From: a virus
Reading direction: 5' to 3' (one strand)
Length of the DNA stretch: 28,005 nt
IMG/VR virus record: IMGVR_UViG_3300009154_000211
Span: 1-28,005 of that record
Made by a program: the position numbers and the translations under genes. Every line of letters starts with the position of its first letter. The first letter of the stretch is position 1. Of the stretch, positions 3,416-28,005 are shown in pieces. The notes under the pieces are model-generated. The model was not told the DNA's origin, searched no databases, and saw only the letters and a list, made by a program, of their open reading frames with translations.

Positions 3416-4462
3416 ATGCTGTCAGATATAAGGTTTTCTGTTCCACTCTGGCCAGGTCTCAGCCCAGAAGATATAGAAAATGATGTTTATCCATTTTTAG
3501 AAGAATGTAAATCAGTAATTTCAGATATCTATATTACTAGTAGAATTCCACCCTTTAATCAAGACGCTATGGGCGGAATACTTTTTCCTGAGGATGTTGG
3601 CATTGTTGAAAACAATTCACTTGTCGTTAGCGACAAGTTTGATATACCACTTAGTTTGACATTTAATAATATCACGGTATCTCCCTCATTTGAAAATTAT
3701 TTGACTTTTTTAGAAAACTTTAAAAGACTTTATGATCTTGGAATTAGAATAGTCACTATACCCAACACAGCTTGGTTAAGGTTTGGTCTTAAAAAAGAAT
3801 TTCCTGAATTGTTTGTAAAAAATACTATTTTGAATCGAGTTCAAACGGCTGCAGAAGTGGCCAAATTATTTGAGGAAGGATTTGATTATATCAATTTAGA
3901 TAGAATTCTGATGAGGGATACTAAAACATTAAAAGAAATACAAAAAGCTAAATTGTCAATGCAGGATACATTGTTAAAGCCACTCTACGTTTCTTTACTT
4001 TATAACGAAATGTGTGAAGGATTTTGTCCAGTACAACAGGATCATTTTGTTTTTAACTTGAATAGACAAGCATCCGATCCTTCTTATTTTCAATCAAAAA
4101 TGTCAGATATATCCCCCTGCGTTATAAAAGACGACAAGTCTATTTTATGGGCACTTAAATCTGCTAGTATACCTTCATTTTATAGCCATTTGGATCATTA
4201 TTCAAAACTTATCGATGTGTTTAAAATGCATGGTAGAGAAAGTCGACATGTGTTCTATAACACCATGGCTATAATAACACAGTTTGTTAGAAGACAACCT
4301 ATTGAAGATCCATATAGACTTATTTTTAAATCTGCATCAGACGATATTAAAAAAACTTGGCTTAAAACTATTGTCAATTGCAAATTTAATTGTTGGCAAT
4401 GTCAAGTTTGCGAAACCACAGCAGAAAAAATATCATTAGTAAAAAACTTCTCCAATAAATAA
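3416..4462 (+). CDS. Peptidase U32 / UbiU-like protein
   Basis: 348 aa. The sequence shows TIM-barrel-like strand/helix alternation and hallmarks of the U32 collagenase-like family (PrtC, UbiU, UbiV, RlhA): NEMCEGFCPVQQDHFVFN at about 197-214 matches the family NE-C---CP---H-N signature, and FKMHGRES near 269-276 matches the conserved K-GR element. Cysteines at 200, 204 and 235, plus a C-terminal cluster CKFNCWQCQVC (322-332), could bind an iron-sulfur cluster as in UbiU/UbiV. Known members act in O2-independent ubiquinone hydroxylation, 23S rRNA hydroxylation or proteolysis; which role applies here is unknown. It starts 1 base after the previous gene and precedes a permease. Unusual cargo for a phage tail region. 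Confidence 0.65.
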   Translation: MLSDIRFSVPLWPGLSPEDIENDVYPFLEECKSVISDIYITSRIPPFNQDAMGGILFPEDVGIVENNSLVVSDKFDIPLSLTFNNITVSPSFENYLTFLENFKRLYDLGIRIVTIPNTAWLRFGLKKEFPELFVKNTILNRVQTAAEVAKLFEEGFDYINLDRILMRDTKTLKEIQKAKLSMQDTLLKPLYVSLLYNEMCEGFCPVQQDHFVFNLNRQASDPSYFQSKMSDISPCVIKDDKSILWALKSASIPSFYSHLDHYSKLIDVFKMHGRESRHVFYNTMAIITQFVRRQPIEDPYRLIFKSASDDIKKTWLKTIVNCKFNCWQCQVCETTAEKISLVKNFSNK

Positions 4463-4480: not shown

Positions 4481-5524
4481 ATGCAATTATTTGATACACT
4501 ATCCAGTGGGCTTGGATATCTATGGATGGTTTTCTTTATTATGATTTCGGCAGGATTGGCCAAAGAATATAATTTATTTGTGCCAGTTTATGCTTATATT
4601 AAAGACACTTTTGGATCTAATAAGTTTGTCGTTGTAATACTCAGCGCAATTGGTGGAATATTGCCAATTGAGGGTCGTGTAACAGTATCGGCCGGTCTTT
4701 TAGATACCGTTGCCCCTAAGTGTGGTCATGGTAGAGAAAAAATGGGTATTGTTGATTATCTATCAACACACCACTATTATATGTGGAGCCCATTAGAAAA
4801 AACTGTACTGTTACCCATTGCCGCATTTGGTCTTACATACTCTGCATTTATTAACATGATAGCTCCGGTTTTGATTGTTAGCTTAGTATATATTAGTTGG
4901 TATATTTGGTTTCAAGTTAAAGAAGATGAAATAGTCATAACGTCTGAAGAGTTTAAAATAAGTGCAGTACTAAGAAATGTGTTGCCTATGTTTGTGGCAT
5001 TAGGCACATATGTTTTTGTTGGTGGAGAAAGTAATGTATTTGCCATTTTTGGTTCATTAGCCCTATATTATGTGATAATTACTCAACAATGGAATTGGAG
5101 AAAATTGTTAAGTTACGTAAATTGGGAAGTGTTAGTTACAGTTGCTTTGGTGATCATTCTTGGAAACTATTTTAAATCACATATGTCTGAATATCAAAAT
5201 CTTATTAAGAATGTAGGATTGAATCCGGGCACTTTTATTGGGATGTTGCTGATTAGCCTAATAGGATTTACAGTTAGTTTTTTAATGGGCAGTAGTGGAA
5301 AATTCATTGCCATAGCTGTATTGATGTCTCAAGTATTCGGTGTTGAATATTTTCTATGGTTCTTTGCCGTCGATTATGCGGGTTATTTATTAAGTCCAAT
5401 GCACAAGTGTGTTATGGTTGGTAATAGATATTTTGGAACTCCGTTTAAAACATATTATATGGCTCTGGGCGGATGGATCTTGCTAATGCTGATTACTTCG
5501 GGCGTCATAGTCTTTCTACTCTAA
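4481..5524 (+). CDS. DUF401-like integral membrane permease
   Basis: 347 aa and very hydrophobic, with roughly eight to ten membrane segments (for example YLWMVFFIMISAGLA, FVVVILSAIGGILP, FIGMLLISLIGFTVSFLMG, GGWILLMLITSGVIVFLL). Conserved-looking polar motifs interrupt the helices: ILPIEGRVTVSAGLLD near 59-74, MGSSGKFIAIAV near 270, and LSPMHKCVMVGNRYFG near 303-318. These resemble the DUF401 transporter-like family (ion-transporter superfamily). Substrate unknown. It is in the host inner membrane if expressed. Last gene of the + strand block, 18 bases after the U32-like gene and before a strong terminator, so the two are probably cotranscribed. Either a metabolic gene taken from a host or a membrane effector. 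Confidence 0.6.
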   Translation: MQLFDTLSSGLGYLWMVFFIMISAGLAKEYNLFVPVYAYIKDTFGSNKFVVVILSAIGGILPIEGRVTVSAGLLDTVAPKCGHGREKMGIVDYLSTHHYYMWSPLEKTVLLPIAAFGLTYSAFINMIAPVLIVSLVYISWYIWFQVKEDEIVITSEEFKISAVLRNVLPMFVALGTYVFVGGESNVFAIFGSLALYYVIITQQWNWRKLLSYVNWEVLVTVALVIILGNYFKSHMSEYQNLIKNVGLNPGTFIGMLLISLIGFTVSFLMGSSGKFIAIAVLMSQVFGVEYFLWFFAVDYAGYLLSPMHKCVMVGNRYFGTPFKTYYMALGGWILLMLITSGVIVFLL

Positions 5525-15558: not shown

Positions 15559-16404
15559 TCACGTCCCCCATTGATTTTTAAAGAGAGGCACTTGAAGTCG
15601 ATCACTATAGCGCCATCCTCTCTGCATTGCCATTTCCGCTACTGTTCTATTATTAAGACTGTAAACTGACTCAACGCCACCAACAGGCATAAGATAAACA
15701 TGACCTGAAAAACCAGCCGCACGATAAGCACCAACTGCACATTCTGCATCTGACACATCTTGTTCTGTTGCAACAACAAATTTCAAATAAGTTGTACCAA
15801 ACCATTCATATTCACAAACAATATTTGGTTGAATTGCATCTTCCCATTTCTCTCCGCTACATGGCAATTTAGCACTTACACTAAACGTAAGTTCTCTACC
15901 ATTTTGTTTGGACCATTTGAACAAATATGATTTAAACTCATCAGACAGCCGTTGAGTGCCATTTGTTTCAAACGTAATTTCTTTTAAAGATGCCATGCTT
16001 GGGTGATCCAATAGATCTGGATAAGCACGTTGCCATCCCAATAGAGGTTCGCCACCAGTAATAACCAAATGTTCATCTACCCAACGCTTATGCGGAAGTA
16101 TTTCCATAATTTGATTTGCAATAGCGTCGCTAGTCAACATTGGGCTTAGTTCTTTAAACTCTGGCATCCAAGATGCGTATGAGTCGCAACCAGTACTTAC
16201 CAATGGAAGTTCTTCATATTTGTTATAAAGATGTGCTACCTGGGCAATATCCTCCGCTTCTGTACTGACAGTACCACGCGACATTCCAAAACCAGCGCAT
16301 TTAAAATTACAGCCAAAAGTTCTAAGGAATACGCTGGGTACCCCCATATATCTACCTTCTCCCTGTATTGAGTAGAATAATTCTGATATCTTAATCTTTG
16401 ACAT
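15559..16404 (-). CDS. queE: QueE-like radical SAM protein (7-carboxy-7-deazaguanine synthase)
   Basis: 281 aa from the ATG at 16404, chosen because AGGAGT lies 5-10 bases upstream and MSKIKISELFYSIQGEGRYMGVPSVFLRTFGCNFKC then begins as QueE proteins do. A 10-residue longer start (16434) would overlap MazG by 29 bases. QueE converts carboxy-tetrahydropterin to 7-carboxy-7-deazaguanine. SIQGEG, GEPLL-type VITGGEPLLGW and TFETNGT are intact. The cluster motif is odd: C32 and C36 are followed by GF rather than WC, and the third Cys, in TGCDSYASW, lies 36 residues later (C73). This resembles an insertion inside the usual CX3CX2C. It sits with QueD, so the pair probably makes a deazaguanine for DNA modification. 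Confidence 0.85.
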   Translation of the reverse strand: MSKIKISELFYSIQGEGRYMGVPSVFLRTFGCNFKCAGFGMSRGTVSTEAEDIAQVAHLYNKYEELPLVSTGCDSYASWMPEFKELSPMLTSDAIANQIMEILPHKRWVDEHLVITGGEPLLGWQRAYPDLLDHPSMASLKEITFETNGTQRLSDEFKSYLFKWSKQNGRELTFSVSAKLPCSGEKWEDAIQPNIVCEYEWFGTTYLKFVVATEQDVSDAECAVGAYRAAGFSGHVYLMPVGGVESVYSLNNRTVAEMAMQRGWRYSDRLQVPLFKNQWGT

Positions 16405-16405
16405 A

Positions 16406-16693
16406 TTACTCCTTTGTGGATGGTTTTGAATCATGAATGCTGCTCCACTGCTTCAATTTAACCAATTTTTTAGATTTTGCTAACTGTGTTCGCTCCTCAT
16501 TGATCAATTCAAATTCTCTCATGAGATCAATCATACAAAGCAAATCACCAACCTCATCTTCTAATCGTTGCCTATTTGTGCGCTCTAAATATTCAGAATC
16601 AATTCCAAATCTAAAGATTTTACTAATAGCCTGCGTTACCTCGGCACATTCTTCTTGTGCAATTAGAAGGATTTCTTTTTGTTGTGAGTTCAT
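16406..16693 (-). CDS. MazG-like nucleotide pyrophosphohydrolase
   Basis: 95 aa, the size of a single all-alpha NTP-PPase domain. The EECAEVTQAISK (14-25) and EDEVGDLLCMIDL (45-57) pair gives the MazG metal-binding arrangement EE-E ... E--D. These enzymes hydrolyse nucleoside triphosphates or alarmones to monophosphates. In a phage, it may clear a damaged or competing dNTP, or alter (p)ppGpp signalling. It lies one base before QueE and 4 bases after the 58-aa gene in the operon. The neighbours suggest a nucleotide-pool role in the deazaguanine pathway; the substrate is not deducible. Confidence 0.82.
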   Translation of the reverse strand: MNSQQKEILLIAQEECAEVTQAISKIFRFGIDSEYLERTNRQRLEDEVGDLLCMIDLMREFELINEERTQLAKSKKLVKLKQWSSIHDSKPSTKE

Positions 16694-16874: not shown

Positions 16875-17016
16875 TGTTATTTCCTTTAGACATTTCAGGT
16901 TTTTTAAATAGTTGTGCCAATCTCTGTGTACGTTCTTGATATTGTTGATCAGTCAAGCTACAGCTATTATCGCACATGGGCTTTCTAGTAGTTCTACCAC
17001 AAACACAATTACTCAT
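16867..17016 (-). CDS. CDGSH-like iron-sulfur mini-protein
   Basis: 49 aa. The first 19 residues (SNCVCGRTTRKPMCDNSC) keep the exact CDGSH spacing C-x-C-x2-S/T-x3-P-x-C-D-x-S-x: C4, C6, T9, P13, C15, D16, S18. The usual final His is Cys here (C19), and the usual Gly is Asn. So four cysteines, not three Cys and one His, would bind a [2Fe-2S] cluster. The rest is a helix (LTDQQYQERTQRLAQLFKKP). Overlaps the QueD stop by 4 bases (ATGA) and the next gene by 8. It may feed electrons or iron-sulfur to QueE, which needs a cluster; inference from context. Alternatively a zinc-binding Cys4 protein. Confidence 0.72.
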   Translation of the reverse strand: MSNCVCGRTTRKPMCDNSCSLTDQQYQERTQRLAQLFKKPEMSKGNNNG

Positions 17017-17537
17017 GCTTCATAAATGGCACTATTGCCAGCATGTTCAAACACTTCGGCACTGCGCAGTTTTACACCGGAGCCAACTGGGTACCTTGCT
17101 TCAAATACTCGGCCATCCGGGTGAGTCCAACCACGTCCCTCTTGATATGCCTCTAAGATTTCTTTCATTGTTCGGAATACTAGTTCAGCAAATTTTTCGC
17201 AACCTACTCCGACCACAACTCTCAAATCCACCACACCACCCTCTGCTTGTTTACCCAATTGTGCCAATTCTTTAAATTTATACATGAGTGGGTCATCCAA
17301 GGCCACAATGGTTTTATGATCAAACTGCCAATCGGCCCACTCTTTAAATGCCTTGAGTCCACCAAAGTCCATGACCCAATTTTTCTCGTCTAAAGTACTG
17401 CTTTCAAAGATCAGTTTGATACCAATCGAGTAACCGTGTAACAATGAACAATGGCTATGATTGGCACGCCATTGACGAAAACAGCATGACAAGCCTCTGT
17501 CAGTGCCGTAGGTTTTTGTAGAAAGATATTTTGCCAT
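17013..17537 (-). CDS. queD: QueD-like 6-carboxytetrahydropterin synthase
   Basis: 174 aa. Family hallmarks: a catalytic-type Cys before the LHG element (SHCSLLHGYSIGI, C30, H34), DFGGLKAFKEW (57-67), DHKTIVALDDP (73-83) with the conserved DH, and E near the C-terminus in SAEVFEHAGNSAIY. QueD makes carboxy-tetrahydropterin from dihydroneopterin triphosphate, the substrate of QueE. The usual HGH zinc motif is HGY here, and the first His of the F-x-A-A-H motif is absent. H27 and H29 may replace the lost ligands. It is the first gene of the operon, with an AGGAG site and an extended -10 promoter. Confident as family, less as activity. Confidence 0.85.
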   Translation of the reverse strand: MAKYLSTKTYGTDRGLSCCFRQWRANHSHCSLLHGYSIGIKLIFESSTLDEKNWVMDFGGLKAFKEWADWQFDHKTIVALDDPLMYKFKELAQLGKQAEGGVVDLRVVVGVGCEKFAELVFRTMKEILEAYQEGRGWTHPDGRVFEARYPVGSGVKLRSAEVFEHAGNSAIYEA

Positions 17538-17842: not shown

Positions 17843-17871
17843 ATTATAGCAAAAATAAAGTAATTTATCAA
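17843..17871 (-). promoter_or_regulatory. Sigma70 promoter of the small membrane-protein gene
   Basis: TTGATA (17871-17866), 17-base spacer, TATAAT (17848-17843) on the - strand. It is followed by ATTATT and then ATG at 17836, so the predicted start of transcription is the A of the start codon. The -35 overlaps the end of the nucleotidyltransferase gene. Confidence 0.8.
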
Positions 17872-18575
17872 CCAATACTTAATTTTTGATCTTGAAAATC
17901 AACCAGTCCTTGATATAATTTTTCCATCCAGCCCAAATTTCTAATTATTTTAAAGGCTAGGTTTTCTGTACTAAACTCACCGCCAGTATCTAATCCACTT
18001 TGTCGCATTTTTCTTATCTTATCGATAAGTCTTTGAAAATCACTGTCAGAATCGGCGGATTTTAATGTTTTAGATATTGCATCTATTAGAGATTGTGCTT
18101 TAATATTCACAGCACGTTGACTATAAGATGGATCAATGTGTTCAGGTTCTTTGACCCAACGATTTTTTAATATTGAATAGATCCCCCCACTAACTGGTGG
18201 TGTTTTAACATCTTCAACATATAATTCAACTTCGTGATCGTAGATAGTAATATCGTGCAGATCATTCCAAATTTGTTTTTTAGCTTTATATAATGTTTCG
18301 GCCAAGTCATCACAGCCTAGATCTTGATAATTAGTTACTATATGCAAATCAAAGTCGCTATACTTGGTATAGTTATAATTAGCCATACTGCCAGCCAGGA
18401 CAATATCAGATATTTTAAAGTCCCTAATGTTCAAATATTCAACAAAAATTTTAGCTATATTTAACAAAGATTTGCGTACTTTAGGATTCATTGAATTCTC
18501 GTACCAAACAACATTGTTTAACTGTTTGTGATATTCCACATTACCTTTAATTAGATTTACTTCGTTGATTTTCAT
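17868..18575 (-). CDS. Polymerase-beta-type nucleotidyltransferase
   Basis: 235 aa. GSMANYNYTKYSDFDLHIV (62-80) is the NTP_transf_2 signature: GS at 62-63 followed by D74 and D76 as metal ligands; VELYV near 116-120 could supply the third acidic strand. These enzymes move nucleotide units onto RNA, proteins or antibiotics, as in MntA/HEPN toxin neutralisation. The C-terminal half (KAQSLIDAISKTLKSADSD, then a long helix) is not typical. It starts KINEV and has no clear internal-protein peptide. It is 4 bases after the next upstream gene; the ATG lacks a strong ribosome-binding site. Target unknown. Confidence 0.8.
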   Translation of the reverse strand: MKINEVNLIKGNVEYHKQLNNVVWYENSMNPKVRKSLLNIAKIFVEYLNIRDFKISDIVLAGSMANYNYTKYSDFDLHIVTNYQDLGCDDLAETLYKAKKQIWNDLHDITIYDHEVELYVEDVKTPPVSGGIYSILKNRWVKEPEHIDPSYSQRAVNIKAQSLIDAISKTLKSADSDSDFQRLIDKIRKMRQSGLDTGGEFSTENLAFKIIRNLGWMEKLYQGLVDFQDQKLSIG

Positions 18576-19659: not shown

Positions 19660-21516
19660 TTATTTATTAGAAGTCACATCACTTGCTGTATTGATTGCTT
19701 TTGAATCTTTAATTCCCATACCTTCTCTGGTCGATTGATATAGGGTTTTTCCGGCAACTATTATATTGCTAGTAACACCGGTATATTGTTGGAATAATTC
19801 TTCATCCCCAATTTCAGCTGCTGATCTAGCCTTGGTTCCACTGTATCCAGCAATACCAACTGCATCTGGATCTCTTTCTCCACTGCTAATGAACTGTATA
19901 ACTACATGGTCTCTCGCTCCCGACGGGTCAGATGATCTAATAGGACCACTATTCCAGCTATTTAATAATTTTTCAATACTGCCCTTTTCCTTGCCCAATC
20001 TGTCACTTCCAGCCACAAAGGCCATATTTCTGAAACCTTTGGAATAAAGCCAGTTGGCTGCATATATTGGGCCTTGTACATAATCTGTGACAATATGTTT
20101 AGCAAATTTAGGATAAATCTCAGCTATGAATTTTGCTTTTATATTAGGATTTAGTGGGTCATCATCACCCACACTATTACTTAAAAATATAAAGGAATTA
20201 GCACCACCAACATCCAAAGTTTTTTGCATAACTAAACCATGACCCAAAGTTGGTGGGTTCATTCGGCCAAAACAAAATGCTGCCAATGGCATAGCACTTT
20301 TTTGTGTTATTTCTTGATCAGAAACTTTATGTTTTGCAAAATTGGCCCTGCTAAATCCCAATCTATCAATCAATTTTAGTTTATCCTTACCAGACCCAAA
20401 CACATAGCCTTCATGAGCATTTAGTCCGTCAGTTATTGCAACAATTTCACTACCTTGTTGTTGTGTATCAATTTGTTGCTTAATATGAATTTTTAATTCA
20501 GTAATTTTTGCCCAGATAGTCCAAATGGCCAATAATCCAGCAGCACCTCCTCGACCATTCACAGGATCATTTGGGTTGGGTTCTCCCATGTCCTGATAAA
20601 GCCAACCATCTTTATTTGATCCCAACATCTTTTTAGCTGATGCCTCACCTAAACGTTCTAATAGAAAATCTAAAAATCTAGGAACAATATTATTTTGTAT
20701 ATCATCTTCTTCTAGCATACGTGTTATAAACGGACCCATTGAAGAAACAACACTTTTACTTTTCAATGTTGTCAAATCTTTAAGAAATTGATCTATAATT
20801 TGCTTATTTTGATCAATTGTTTTCTTGGCATCAGCAAGCAAGTTTTTATTGACAGCCACTTTTGGTTTGTCTTGCATTTCCCCAACCATAAAGGTAATTC
20901 CAGCATTGTCATCCAATCCCTTTAGTCCCACTAACGGTTGATCCTCTTGACCTAAACCAGCAATATATGTGTGTACTGCTATGCCGCCAACACTTCGTGC
21001 CATCTTATCGCTAAGTGTATTGCCCCTTCCAGGAGTGGCATCAATCTTAACTCTATACTCAACAGTATTTGGTTTGAAAACAAAATATCCATTTTCTGTT
21101 TTTGGAGTTCCTGACCACATTAGATCACCCATCCAATAACGATCTTTGACATTGGGGATGGCTTTTTCTAAAGCTGGTCGCAATACACTTTCTTTCTCCC
21201 AAAGATCTCCACGATTAGCATCACGTGATATATCATAATCTTTGATGCTCATAAATTTCATTGTGCCCTTAACAACTTTGTCATACATGTGTTTGTCCAT
21301 GAAGACCAAGTTTCCATTACCATCCCTTCCAAAAACAACGGCAGGAAATCCATCCCATTTGATAGAAACTGTGATTGGATTTTTTTCTAAATTGGCTAAA
21401 TCTGTTAGAACTCTTTCTGCACCTGCACCGCCTTGACTGATAATTCGATCTTCAGGATGGTCAATACCTTCCATTATTTCTCGTTTAGTTGGTGTGAATA
21501 GTTCTATTAAGTACAT
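19660..21516 (-). CDS. DUF6267-like fusion: ligase-type adenylyltransferase plus cytidylyltransferase domain
   Basis: 618 aa. N-terminal part has a covalent nucleotidyltransferase (ligase) motif I KWDG at 53-56 in SIKWDGFPAVVFGRDGNG; GDLMW near 130 as a motif III-like strand; EGYVF at 369-373 and KLKL at 379-382 fit motifs IV and V. An insertion of about 150 residues separates III and IV. The C-terminal domain (410-600) has GRMNPPTLGH (417-426), a (H/T)xGH nucleotidylyltransferase motif, and SGTKARSA (559-566), as in NMN adenylyltransferases. So it may join or cap nucleic acids, or process NAD. The N-terminus MYLIELFTPTKREIME-G resembles T4 capsid-targeting peptides (see findings). A late box lies directly upstream. 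The exact reaction is not known. Confidence 0.8.
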   Translation of the reverse strand: MYLIELFTPTKREIMEGIDHPEDRIISQGGAGAERVLTDLANLEKNPITVSIKWDGFPAVVFGRDGNGNLVFMDKHMYDKVVKGTMKFMSIKDYDISRDANRGDLWEKESVLRPALEKAIPNVKDRYWMGDLMWSGTPKTENGYFVFKPNTVEYRVKIDATPGRGNTLSDKMARSVGGIAVHTYIAGLGQEDQPLVGLKGLDDNAGITFMVGEMQDKPKVAVNKNLLADAKKTIDQNKQIIDQFLKDLTTLKSKSVVSSMGPFITRMLEEDDIQNNIVPRFLDFLLERLGEASAKKMLGSNKDGWLYQDMGEPNPNDPVNGRGGAAGLLAIWTIWAKITELKIHIKQQIDTQQQGSEIVAITDGLNAHEGYVFGSGKDKLKLIDRLGFSRANFAKHKVSDQEITQKSAMPLAAFCFGRMNPPTLGHGLVMQKTLDVGGANSFIFLSNSVGDDDPLNPNIKAKFIAEIYPKFAKHIVTDYVQGPIYAANWLYSKGFRNMAFVAGSDRLGKEKGSIEKLLNSWNSGPIRSSDPSGARDHVVIQFISSGERDPDAVGIAGYSGTKARSAAEIGDEELFQQYTGVTSNIIVAGKTLYQSTREGMGIKDSKAINTASDVTSNK

Positions 21517-21537: not shown

Positions 21538-22398
21538 TCAAGCAAACAATTGTTTGACTTGATTCCATTTTTCAGGATGTTTTTGTAATGCTGTCTTAAT
21601 ACCAGTAACACTTGATATATCTCTAGCAGTGGCCTCTGGACCTATTAGGATTTTAGCAATTTCGTCCTTATCTATGGCCACAACTTGATTGGTAGTTCTA
21701 TCAACCAAACCTCTATCCGGACTATATTGCAAACTTCCTTTTTCTTCACCAGTTTTTGGATCAATGAATGTAGTCTTGCTACTAATTTTAGTTAATAAAG
21801 GATATATGTTTACCCAAAGATCTGCGCCACGCATACCTGGATCTTTGCTAAAGTCATGTGTATGAAGAATCCAAGCAGCACGTGGTCTAAGTATTAAGTC
21901 TATCGAAAAGTTTTTTCCATTTTTAGAATATTGTACGGTCAATGTACCAGGGTCAGTGGGAAATCCTTTTTTAGTCATATAATCAGCCAATGCCCATTTA
22001 CTGGCATCACGTTGATAAGCTGCTTTTTTTTCTGGATTAGCTAGGGCATTAGCCAATGCTTTTGGTCCAACTTTTTTATTTCCCAACTGTTCTGCTGCCC
22101 TGTTATATTCTTGAACATATTGTTCTATATCTTTTGGAAATTTTTCTAAAAGTTCTTCTGGATCAATCATAATATCAATATCACCGGAATCTTGCCTGCC
22201 ACCCCCACCATATGGATGTTCAGGATCAAAGCTACCAGCGCCGCCCACGCTCCATCCAGCAGCCAATCCAGCCTTTGCTAAAACGGGATTAATTGATTTT
22301 TTTGCCGTTAGGAAATCTTGTTCAGTAACTCGTGACACGACGACTCCAGCTTTAGCTAGGCGTTTTCCACTTTCAGATATAAATTCTTGTGCTCGCAT
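21538..22398 (-). CDS. Nucleotidyltransferase with T4-like capsid-targeting peptide
   Basis: 286 aa. The start MRAQEFISE-S is close to the T4 internal-protein signal, MKTYQEFIAE-A, which is cut by the prohead protease after Glu; here the cut would fall after E9. The body carries a polymerase-beta-type motif: GS at 55-56 in GAGSFDPEHPYGGGGRQDSGDIDIMID (the D-x-D is D73/D75), with FSIDLIL as a possible third acidic strand. It ends in a short Lys-rich region. Length and motif are good; the Gly-rich loop between GS and D-x-D is longer than usual. Role inferred: an enzyme packaged in the head and injected into the host, where it may transfer a nucleotide to a host molecule. Confidence 0.75.
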   Translation of the reverse strand: MRAQEFISESGKRLAKAGVVVSRVTEQDFLTAKKSINPVLAKAGLAAGWSVGGAGSFDPEHPYGGGGRQDSGDIDIMIDPEELLEKFPKDIEQYVQEYNRAAEQLGNKKVGPKALANALANPEKKAAYQRDASKWALADYMTKKGFPTDPGTLTVQYSKNGKNFSIDLILRPRAAWILHTHDFSKDPGMRGADLWVNIYPLLTKISSKTTFIDPKTGEEKGSLQYSPDRGLVDRTTNQVVAIDKDEIAKILIGPEATARDISSVTGIKTALQKHPEKWNQVKQLFA

Positions 22399-22444: not shown

Positions 22445-23041
22445 TTAAAGAATATTTGCAGTATAGTCGTAGTTGACCATAATACAAAAACTTTGCATTT
22501 TTCTTTTATCACTAACATCTGCGTCAGGAATAACCCTTAACAAGCTGGCACCATTTCTAATATGAAATCTAGCCACAGGATCTTTTTGTTCACGTAAAAA
22601 TTCAGCAATAACTTTGACGTCTGGTGGCTCGTTAAAATGTGCGCTCAAGTTTGGTATTGGGCTCATGGTGACAAAATGATTTATTTCACTTTTATTATTT
22701 TTAATCCAAGTAGCAGCTTCTCTTATCAAAACTGCTCCAGTATTTTTCACCTTAGTGGATTCATTGGTTCTGAATACACTATAAAAAATAGCATGGTCAG
22801 CAGTTTCTTCTACAGGACTTTGGTCTGCCAAAATGTCATTAATGTTGTCTTTGAGCCCCAATGCATATGCTACACATAATACGGCAGTTACCACAGCATC
22901 TTCTATCCAAAAGAAGATATTTCGATCCTGTTGACATCTTCTGTCAAGACTTCGATCAACAGAGAACGAATGTACTGGATCCTGGTCCAGATAACGCAAG
23001 TAATCCCTTGAAAAATTTGATGATTGAAGATGAGCTAACAT
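22445..23041 (-). CDS. Miniature malonyl-CoA decarboxylase-like (GNAT-fold) protein
   Basis: 198 aa. Matches the C-terminal catalytic domain of malonyl-CoA decarboxylase (MCD): NDILADQSPVEETADHAIFYSVF (68-90), HFVTMSPIPNL (122-132; family LSPIPGF, S127), DPVARFHIRNGASLLRVI (154-171; family FHL-NGA, H160) and MVNYDY (188-193). In MCD the corresponding Ser and His are catalytic, and both are kept. MCD makes acetyl-CoA from malonyl-CoA. The N-terminal helical domain of normal MCD (about 450 aa in all) is absent, so this is a single-domain form. Because MCD has a GNAT fold, another acyl-CoA reaction is possible. A perfect TATAAATA box is 24 bases upstream of the ATG. Confidence 0.78.
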   Translation of the reverse strand: MLAHLQSSNFSRDYLRYLDQDPVHSFSVDRSLDRRCQQDRNIFFWIEDAVVTAVLCVAYALGLKDNINDILADQSPVEETADHAIFYSVFRTNESTKVKNTGAVLIREAATWIKNNKSEINHFVTMSPIPNLSAHFNEPPDVKVIAEFLREQKDPVARFHIRNGASLLRVIPDADVSDKRKMQSFCIMVNYDYTANIL

Positions 23042-26637: not shown

Positions 26638-28005
26638 TTATTTTTTTCGCCCATTGCGCATATTTATTTGCCAGCGTGCCAGTTGTCCTTTTCGGCCTTT
26701 AGCGTGGCTAGCTTTTTCTAATTCGGCCATAGTAGCATTTTTAGGAATACCGTGGCGTTGGCTATCTCCTGGGCGCCCAGGACCCTTACCATCTGCAAAG
26801 TTTTCTGTCACAGACTCGGGTGACCAGGCCAGACTCTTGCTGCCCTTGACTGTGGGCTTGAATCCTGCGCTCTTGTAAAACTTCATCAATTTGCTTTGAC
26901 TCACTTGTCCCTTGTCCCAAGGAAACAGTGTGAGTGAGATACCATCTTCTTGTGCCAGGCGTTGCAATTCCTGCATGGCTCTAGTGCCAACACCTTGACG
27001 TAGTGGATAGGCCTGGAACCATTTGATTTCCACAGCACCGCGCTGGCTCATGCTGGGAACCAGTTCAAACGTGGCAAACTGTTGATCATCGCCTGAACCG
27101 CCCAGGGGCATGACATGATTGTTTTGCCAAGTCTGTGGGTATGCGGCGTAGACCTTTTCGATCCAGGCCAGTGCTTTGGCATTACTGTTGATTTTGATTT
27201 GAGTTGGCTGGTCATCGTCTTCCGCCACACCTTGCGCGGGACGATCAATGCCCAGATACTTTATGGCATATTCTCTGGCACGTTGTTTGTCTTCGGGAGT
27301 GTATGATTTGTCAAGAGCATCCCATCCTTGAAGTACAATCCATTTTTCTTGCGCTTTGTCCCATTCCATATAGTGGCTGACGTTCACCAAGTCTTGAGTC
27401 TCAGCTGGGAATTTGTTATGTCTGGTAGAATTAAAATCGCGTCCAATCATGGGCAACTGTTTGTGTCTGCCTTCTGCGTCTATGTATTCTCGAGTTAGTG
27501 CATCGTACACATAGGCGTGAGTCAATGTCCAATTTTCATGATTGTATTTTATATCCCGTTGCCGGACAGGATCCAGTTCGTCAAACTCATCAGGTTCTAG
27601 ATACCTGTCCGGCAACGAATCAAAGAATTCATAAACAAATCCCAGTGTAAATCTCTGAGGATTCATGTTGCGTATGGTGAGAGCTAATACTGCACATTCA
27701 CCTTGCATGTACTGAATTTTTGCGATTTCTCGCTCGCTTGTACTTTCTCGCGTCAAATGTTTTTCCGAGCCTTCCGTCACACCTTGCTGACCTTCGTGTT
27801 CGCCACGGACAGCACGATCAACATAATCATCGGTGACTGGTCGCTCTAGGTCTACACTCACGCCCAGTTGCTTTGCAAGTTTTAATATCTGACCACGCAC
27901 TAGGGGGTCTTTATATATCGCAGTTAAACTATACTGACCTTCACTGTAATCACTTTGATCTTGAAACAGTGGTATCACTCCGGGAATCTTCTGCAACCCT
28001 GCGTA
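26638..28005 (-). CDS. Multidomain protein: papain-like, GNAT and basic tail (5' end outside the window)
   Basis: The frame is open to the right edge (codons for YAG precede the first listed residue), so the true start lies beyond the window; a TTG at 27996 is only internal. Using that codon as residue 1: GVTE (72-75) ends an N-terminal part; residues 76-259 have QGECAVLALTIRNMNP (98-113) and THAYVYDALTREYIDAEG (159-176), fitting a Cys-His-Asp papain-like peptidase; GVAE (256-259); a GNAT acetyltransferase with PLRQGVGTRAM (331-341) and FYKSAGF (373-379); SVTE (395-398); then a basic tail (GKGPGRPGDSQR, KGRKGQLARWQINMRNGRKK). The hydrophobic-X-Glu motifs fit prohead-protease sites. GC-richer than its neighbours (27001-27060: 33 of 60 G+C; 22081-22140: 21 of 60). 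Confidence 0.7.
   Translation of the reverse strand, partial: YAGLQKIPGVIPLFQDQSDYSEGQYSLTAIYKDPLVRGQILKLAKQLGVSVDLERPVTDDYVDRAVRGEHEGQQGVTEGSEKHLTRESTSEREIAKIQYMQGECAVLALTIRNMNPQRFTLGFVYEFFDSLPDRYLEPDEFDELDPVRQRDIKYNHENWTLTHAYVYDALTREYIDAEGRHKQLPMIGRDFNSTRHNKFPAETQDLVNVSHYMEWDKAQEKWIVLQGWDALDKSYTPEDKQRAREYAIKYLGIDRPAQGVAEDDDQPTQIKINSNAKALAWIEKVYAAYPQTWQNNHVMPLGGSGDDQQFATFELVPSMSQRGAVEIKWFQAYPLRQGVGTRAMQELQRLAQEDGISLTLFPWDKGQVSQSKLMKFYKSAGFKPTVKGSKSLAWSPESVTENFADGKGPGRPGDSQRHGIPKNATMAELEKASHAKGRKGQLARWQINMRNGRKK
27557..27617 (-). repeat. 14-bp perfect inverted repeat inside the multidomain gene
   Basis: CGTTGCCGGACAGG (27557-27570) and its exact reverse complement CCTGTCCGGCAACG (27604-27617), with 33 bases between them. 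It would form a GC-rich hairpin in the message at the codons for SLPDR ... DPVRQR. No T-run follows. Confidence 0.85.

Follow-up and report, generated by a model that had tools for sequence, protein, structure and literature searches.

The stretch of DNA analysed here, hereafter the window, is a 28,005-base IMG/VR fragment that ends within a polyprotein gene encoded on the minus strand (26638..28005). This 3' part of the gene counts 455 codons, is open at its 5' end and has its stop at 26638; the start lies beyond the contig end, and the gene's own N-terminus and capsid targeting sequence (CTS) are absent from the window. Four modules can be delimited along the chain, all on the minus strand. 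Module 1 (aa 1-73, 27787..28005), truncated by the contig end, belongs to a 'KEIEFVCVNPKFP..' family whose function is not known; two relatives (L024 and L022) carry about 34 extra residues of it together with additional modules upstream, and upstream modules are usual in relatives. It is followed by junction 1, QGVTE, with E78 as its glutamate (27771..27786, DNA CAAGGTGTGACGGAAG), and by module 2 (aa 79-257, 27235..27770), a candidate cysteine hydrolase with a conserved C104-H163-D176. Junction 2, QGVAE with E262 (27219..27234, DNA CAAGGTGTGGCGGAAG), is an exact copy of the conserved linker described below and precedes module 3 (aa 263-397, 26815..27218), a predicted GNAT acetyltransferase with an RQGVGT acetyl-CoA loop. 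Junction 3, SVTE with E401 (26803..26814), leads to module 4 (aa 402-455, 26641..26802), a basic NFADGKGPGRPGDSQRHGIPK tail that is the most frequent shared module. The residues E78, E262 and E401 are counted along the open frame and correspond to E75, E259 and E398 of an earlier note on this DNA, which counted from the first TTG.

That note had placed the motifs GVTE, GVAE and SVTE exactly between predicted modules, and this is borne out by other phage proteins, homology to which starts and stops at the motifs. An IMG/VR scan returned 80 loci whose matches mostly span single modules. Over all loci, the homology blocks cover residues 1-73/75, 89-253/254, 264-397 and 397/401-455, some of them continuing through a shared junction. 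When single modules were searched, module 1 matched nine contigs with homology ending at aa 73-75 and none further, and module 2 was matched by four contigs; tail homology begins at 397-401 in most matching loci. A stand-alone 110-aa copy of module 1, beginning with MIITE, is encoded by L098. Since the homology blocks end at the motifs, each motif marks a seam between independently moving sequences. The additional GV-E motifs and domains that the earlier note proposed to look for are both present in the chains of relatives. The window chain contains four [VIL]xE motifs only, three of which lie at module edges; the fourth, VYE, is found inside module 2 and is counted against reading the motifs as cleavage sites.

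AlphaFold2 places the three junction motifs in low-confidence coil (68-89, 256-269 and 385-409), as expected of motifs lying outside folded cores. The full-length model is poor except for module 1 and the GNAT domain, whose core is modelled with pLDDT >90 across most of 271-360. Of the two domains named in the earlier note, the GNAT domain stood. Foldseek and AlphaFold2 agree on a GNAT fold for module 3, the R/Q-x-x-G-x-G/A loop is present as RQGVGT, and the Pfam match to GNAT, weak and below cut-off in the window, is above cut-off in a relative (L005); the modelled structure thus supports the prediction of a GNAT acetyltransferase. The Foldseek matches are GNAT enzymes including the anti-CRISPR AcrVA5 (probability 1.00, TM 0.63 by target), a likeness at fold level only (E 7e-3) that ordinary GNATs equal in score and that gives no pointer to Cas12a as target. 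The papain-like domain did not stand beyond the conservation of C104, H163 and D176, which are invariant in relatives covering these positions, including one that is 36% identical. Module 2 had no Pfam match and no PDB sequence match, and its best Foldseek hit against the PDB reached E 0.76 and probability 0.04 with a model of pLDDT 77 built from 6 sequences. A papain-like fold was not recovered by any of these searches, so that the term stays a guess, and we propose a peptidase for module 2 only tentatively, from its residue pattern.

Chains of the same kind elsewhere contain ART-PolyVal, ParB, GNAT and amidoligase domains. Much of this domain set corresponds to the repertoire of polyvalent proteins (PMC5512222); at least two unrelated effector-like domains are found per chain, and their order is mosaic among phages. 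In one related polyprotein (L002, 2846-3979), a module resembling, by eye, a RelA/SpoT HD hydrolase lies between the GNAT module and the basic tail, and could possibly be an injected alarmone hydrolase.

The association of the motif with module edges was quantified in related loci. Their ORFs of at least 100 aa were compared all against all, internal homology starts and stops were listed, and ~170 representative proteins were evaluated with random positions as control. The motif [VIL]xE was found near 168 of 460 internal homology starts (84 expected) and near 153 of 384 internal ends (69 expected), counts to be read with the caveat that homology edges are partly interdependent and that local alignments stretch to shared matching residues. 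No excess at edges was seen when the Glu slot was swapped for D, K, Q, R, S, G or A. Among the 20 residues tried in the first slot, V (z 11.3), L (z 8.0) and I (z 6.2) came out on top, followed by T (z 3.3), and the edge excess persisted when all QGVxE were masked (z 9.1 and 10.7). The most frequent junction reads V-x-E|G, whereas CTS sites here and in T4 favour L/I-x-E|S/A. The T4 prohead protease gp21 cleaves after L/I-X-E (PMC9026906); the valine at the junction departs from this rule and counts against cleavage by a prohead protease. The C-terminus of T4 gp22 (L344) reads NFVTE|AVED, a V-x-E|A site on the face of its letters, and gp21 may accept valine there.

The earlier note presupposed a prohead protease of the gp21 type. 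The window, as a 28-kb fragment, contains neither a protease gene nor a capsid gene, and such a protease is present in phages of the same group. On two larger contigs that contain relatives, G002 (238 kb) and G003 (328 kb), a PF03420 (gp21-type) protease (E ~5e-26; at 307459-308085 on G003) adjoins a gp22-like scaffold and gp23, and the same trio is found on loci L020, L021 and L073. The N-terminal part of gp23 carries NTRKYLSE|SATAG on G002 and NTRKYLAE|AATAG on G003, a T4-like LxE|A/S site, presumably the one used in maturation. Matches to the window were found for fourteen genes of G003, of which ten form a collinear block at about G003 256-263 kb. No gp21 or gp23 was found on G001 (342 kb), whose homology to G003 ends just before that cluster, and a contig edge can explain their absence. 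The nearest cultured gp23 proteins (~70%) belong to Vibrio phage 2.275.O, Sinorhizobium phage Phosso and Cronobacter phage GAP32. The linker was not found in these three phages, and a CTS scan of GAP32 and Vibrio phage 2.275.O rose little above background, with no clear excess; for GAP32 and Vibrio phage 2.275.O, the lack of both counts against the explanation favoured below. Searching INPHARED by tblastn with the window ORF gave zero matches. With the polyproteins of two relatives, the only matches were to the HAD/5'-nucleotidase module with which the L022 chain begins, hit in Methylophilales phage Melnitz among others, and to a DUF5661 region in one Vibrio phage.

In the T4 record, IPII and IPIII begin with MKTYQEFIAE|, which continues as AS in IPIII, and the first ten residues of IPIII are enough for head targeting (PMC9026906). 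N-termini of this kind were found in relatives on the very modules of the window chain, in line with the head packaging put forward in the earlier note. The GNAT module comes first in other phages' chains, after MRLYELINE|, MRLYEFIDE| or MRAQEFVAE|, and the Cys-His module comes first in the L093 chain, after MRANEFIVE|. Within the window, a stand-alone gene with a T4-type CTS (21538..22398, minus strand) begins MRAQEFISE|SGKRL. Across related loci, 90 of 554 closed ORFs (16%) have CTS-like starts against a background of 3%; P3 is L/I in 78 of 84 and P1' is mainly S/A, like T4 IPIII and gp23. With a stricter pattern, 13 such starts were counted on G003 against ~2 expected, and CTS genes are few on G002. 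The chain of L091/L092 reads ELAE|ANEFIVE|SDERAI, in which ANEFIVE| is a former N-terminal CTS, now a fossil inside a fusion. At the site equivalent to the CTS end, hxE is present in 64 of 94 internal copies, a raw count taken with no control; about one third of the copies lack it, which counts against cleavage.

The junction is conserved as DNA as well. A ~20-bp element, AGCAAGGTGTGGCGGAAGGC, encodes QGVAE at module junctions of many IMG/VR contigs (for example L179, L220 and L229), and a 16-mer scan of IMG/VR yielded at least 120 stretches. The window holds two copies (27219-27234 and 27771-27786, minus strand) against 0.09 expected. Among 40 distinct QGVAE contexts, 27 have CAAGGTGTGGCGGAA as the coding DNA. 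Codon choice is strongly biased across 45 QGVAE/QGVTE contexts: the Ala/Thr codon ends in G in 82% (for Ala, GCG has a share of 9% here), valine is encoded by GTG in 89% (usage 21%) and glycine by GGT in 98% (usage 44%); this wobble-position conservation falls to background beyond ~20 bp. VAE is written GTGGCG in 34 of 39 cases after QG, as compared with 2 of 74 elsewhere (not after G or S). An 18-mer of the element had 24 scattered matches, each single, in 84,980 bacterial and archaeal genomes, and no multi-linker ORF occurred among the bacterial-genome matches; the element is therefore not a cellular repeat. Clean insertions, in which a chain carries an extra module as compared with a relative, amount to 108 distinct cases; both breakpoints fall at hxE in 59 of them against 11.4 expected, and this gain and loss of modules at junctions suggests homology-driven shuffling at the seams.

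We consider it likely that the window gene encodes a T4-type head-packaged 'polyvalent' polyprotein, cut by a prohead protease, whose modules are injected with the DNA. One gene would thus probably give rise to several head-packed proteins that enter the cell together with the phage genome. From the modules, the junction motif, the CTS N-termini on the same modules and the gp21, gp22 and gp23 genes of the phage group, all read at the level of sequence, we infer cleavage, packaging, injection and targets of the window polyprotein. The same tests lend support to the central proposal of the earlier note, several proteins made as one chain with prohead-protease-like sites. The phage would be a large T4-like one, and its modular polyprotein would be directed into the prohead core by a CTS at the N-terminus, located off-contig here. 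A gp21-type prohead protease would cut after the Glu of every [V/I/L]-x-E junction, and the freed modules would remain in the head, enter the cell along with the DNA and act early, on the host or on host defences. In this case the delivered set would comprise an acetyltransferase, possibly a cysteine hydrolase, the small basic protein of the tail and module 1, which has no known function.

The chain could also be packaged in the head as a polyvalent protein and injected intact, the hxE stretches being mere flexible tethers between domains. The coil predicted at the junctions by AlphaFold2 would suit tethers, and the virion RNA polymerase of N4, a polyvalent protein, is packaged unprocessed (PMC5512222). 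A tether, however, requires neither a fixed Glu nor V, I or L two residues earlier, both of which stand out, and the junction is interchangeable with the CTS end, which T4 cuts; an intact chain is in our opinion unlikely, if still worth keeping in mind. We find it improbable that the junctions are cut by a peptidase within the polyprotein, or by a host protease, instead of the prohead protease. Embedded peptidases were proposed for polyvalent proteins by Iyer et al. (PMC5512222), and module 2 displays a Cys-His-Asp pattern, but among 71 multi-linker proteins the Cys-His module occurs in two and HExxH in four, whereas the junction occurs in all, and the junction fits the logic of gp21 and of the CTS.

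The conserved wobble positions of QGVAE and the gain and loss of modules at junctions would be accounted for if the linker were mainly a DNA-level repeat, a recombination site fusing genes, with an incidental peptide and nothing packaged or cut. Yet all 112 exact copies examined lie in a single reading frame (six of them meet a stop within 30 codons, owing to their position near the ORF end), and hxE is kept at junctions devoid of the DNA repeat, which makes this reading very improbable indeed. Other selection acting on DNA or RNA may lie behind the conservation of the element. It is quite possible, if somewhat short of probable, that the ~20-bp junction serves two purposes, as a DNA recombination seam for trading modules and as a prohead-protease site for releasing them; injected effectors would then be organised in these phages as a cassette system able to evolve.

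Head targeting and prohead-protease sites are known from T4, and polyvalent effectors are known too; what would be new is their combination as a shuffled polyprotein, and no description of effector polyproteins cut by a prohead protease was found in the searchable open-access literature. T4 IPI-III and Alt resemble the CTS-bearing relatives in their short N-terminal MxxxEFIxE propeptide, the gp21 cut after Glu and the co-delivery with DNA (PMC9026906). The T4 site is N-terminal, with one also near the C-terminus in Alt (PMC9026906), whereas the chains described here link many modules and have a site at each junction. Polyvalent proteins likewise combine ART-PolyVal, GNAT, Pol-beta, ParB and zincin-like domains in one chain and in mosaic order; the accessible text describes them as cut by embedded peptidases or uncut, and reports no T4-type CTS or prohead-protease sites (PMC5512222). 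Head proteins of phiKZ and SPN3US also possess multiple Glu-terminated prohead protease sites per protein (PMC10052503), but there the cuts take off long propeptides, whereas here they would part functional modules. DarA and DdrB of P1, a phage unrelated to that of the window, are head-packaged and proteolytically processed before packaging (PMC5512222); head packaging and processing would be shared by the window chain. Should the favoured explanation hold, uncultured phages of a widespread group make many injected effectors as single chains separated at head maturation, a phage counterpart of RNA-virus polyproteins in which the capsid protease does the processing. The CTS together with [VIL]xE would then provide a sequence rule to spot, in metagenomes, injected host-takeover and counter-defence proteins that otherwise lack annotation.

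Several other genes of the window deserve mention. A Pol-beta-type nucleotidyltransferase (17868..18575, minus strand; PHROG 36119, E 2.6e-45) looks by eye like the first polyprotein module in L008 and L099-L102. A protein that matches the malonyl-CoA decarboxylase C-terminal domain (PF05292, E 2.9e-28), unexpected for a phage, is encoded at 22445-23041 (minus strand). By eye, QueE-like radical SAM and QueD-like genes are located at 15559-16434 and 17013-17537 (minus strand), which suggests 7-deazaguanine (preQ0-type) DNA modification. A 348-aa ORF resembling, by eye, a U32-type peptidase (3416-4462) adjoins the gene of a 347-aa multi-pass membrane protein, possibly a transporter (4481-5524, plus strand). 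Finally, DUF6267 and cytidyltransferase domains are fused in a two-enzyme chain encoded at 19660-21516 (minus strand).
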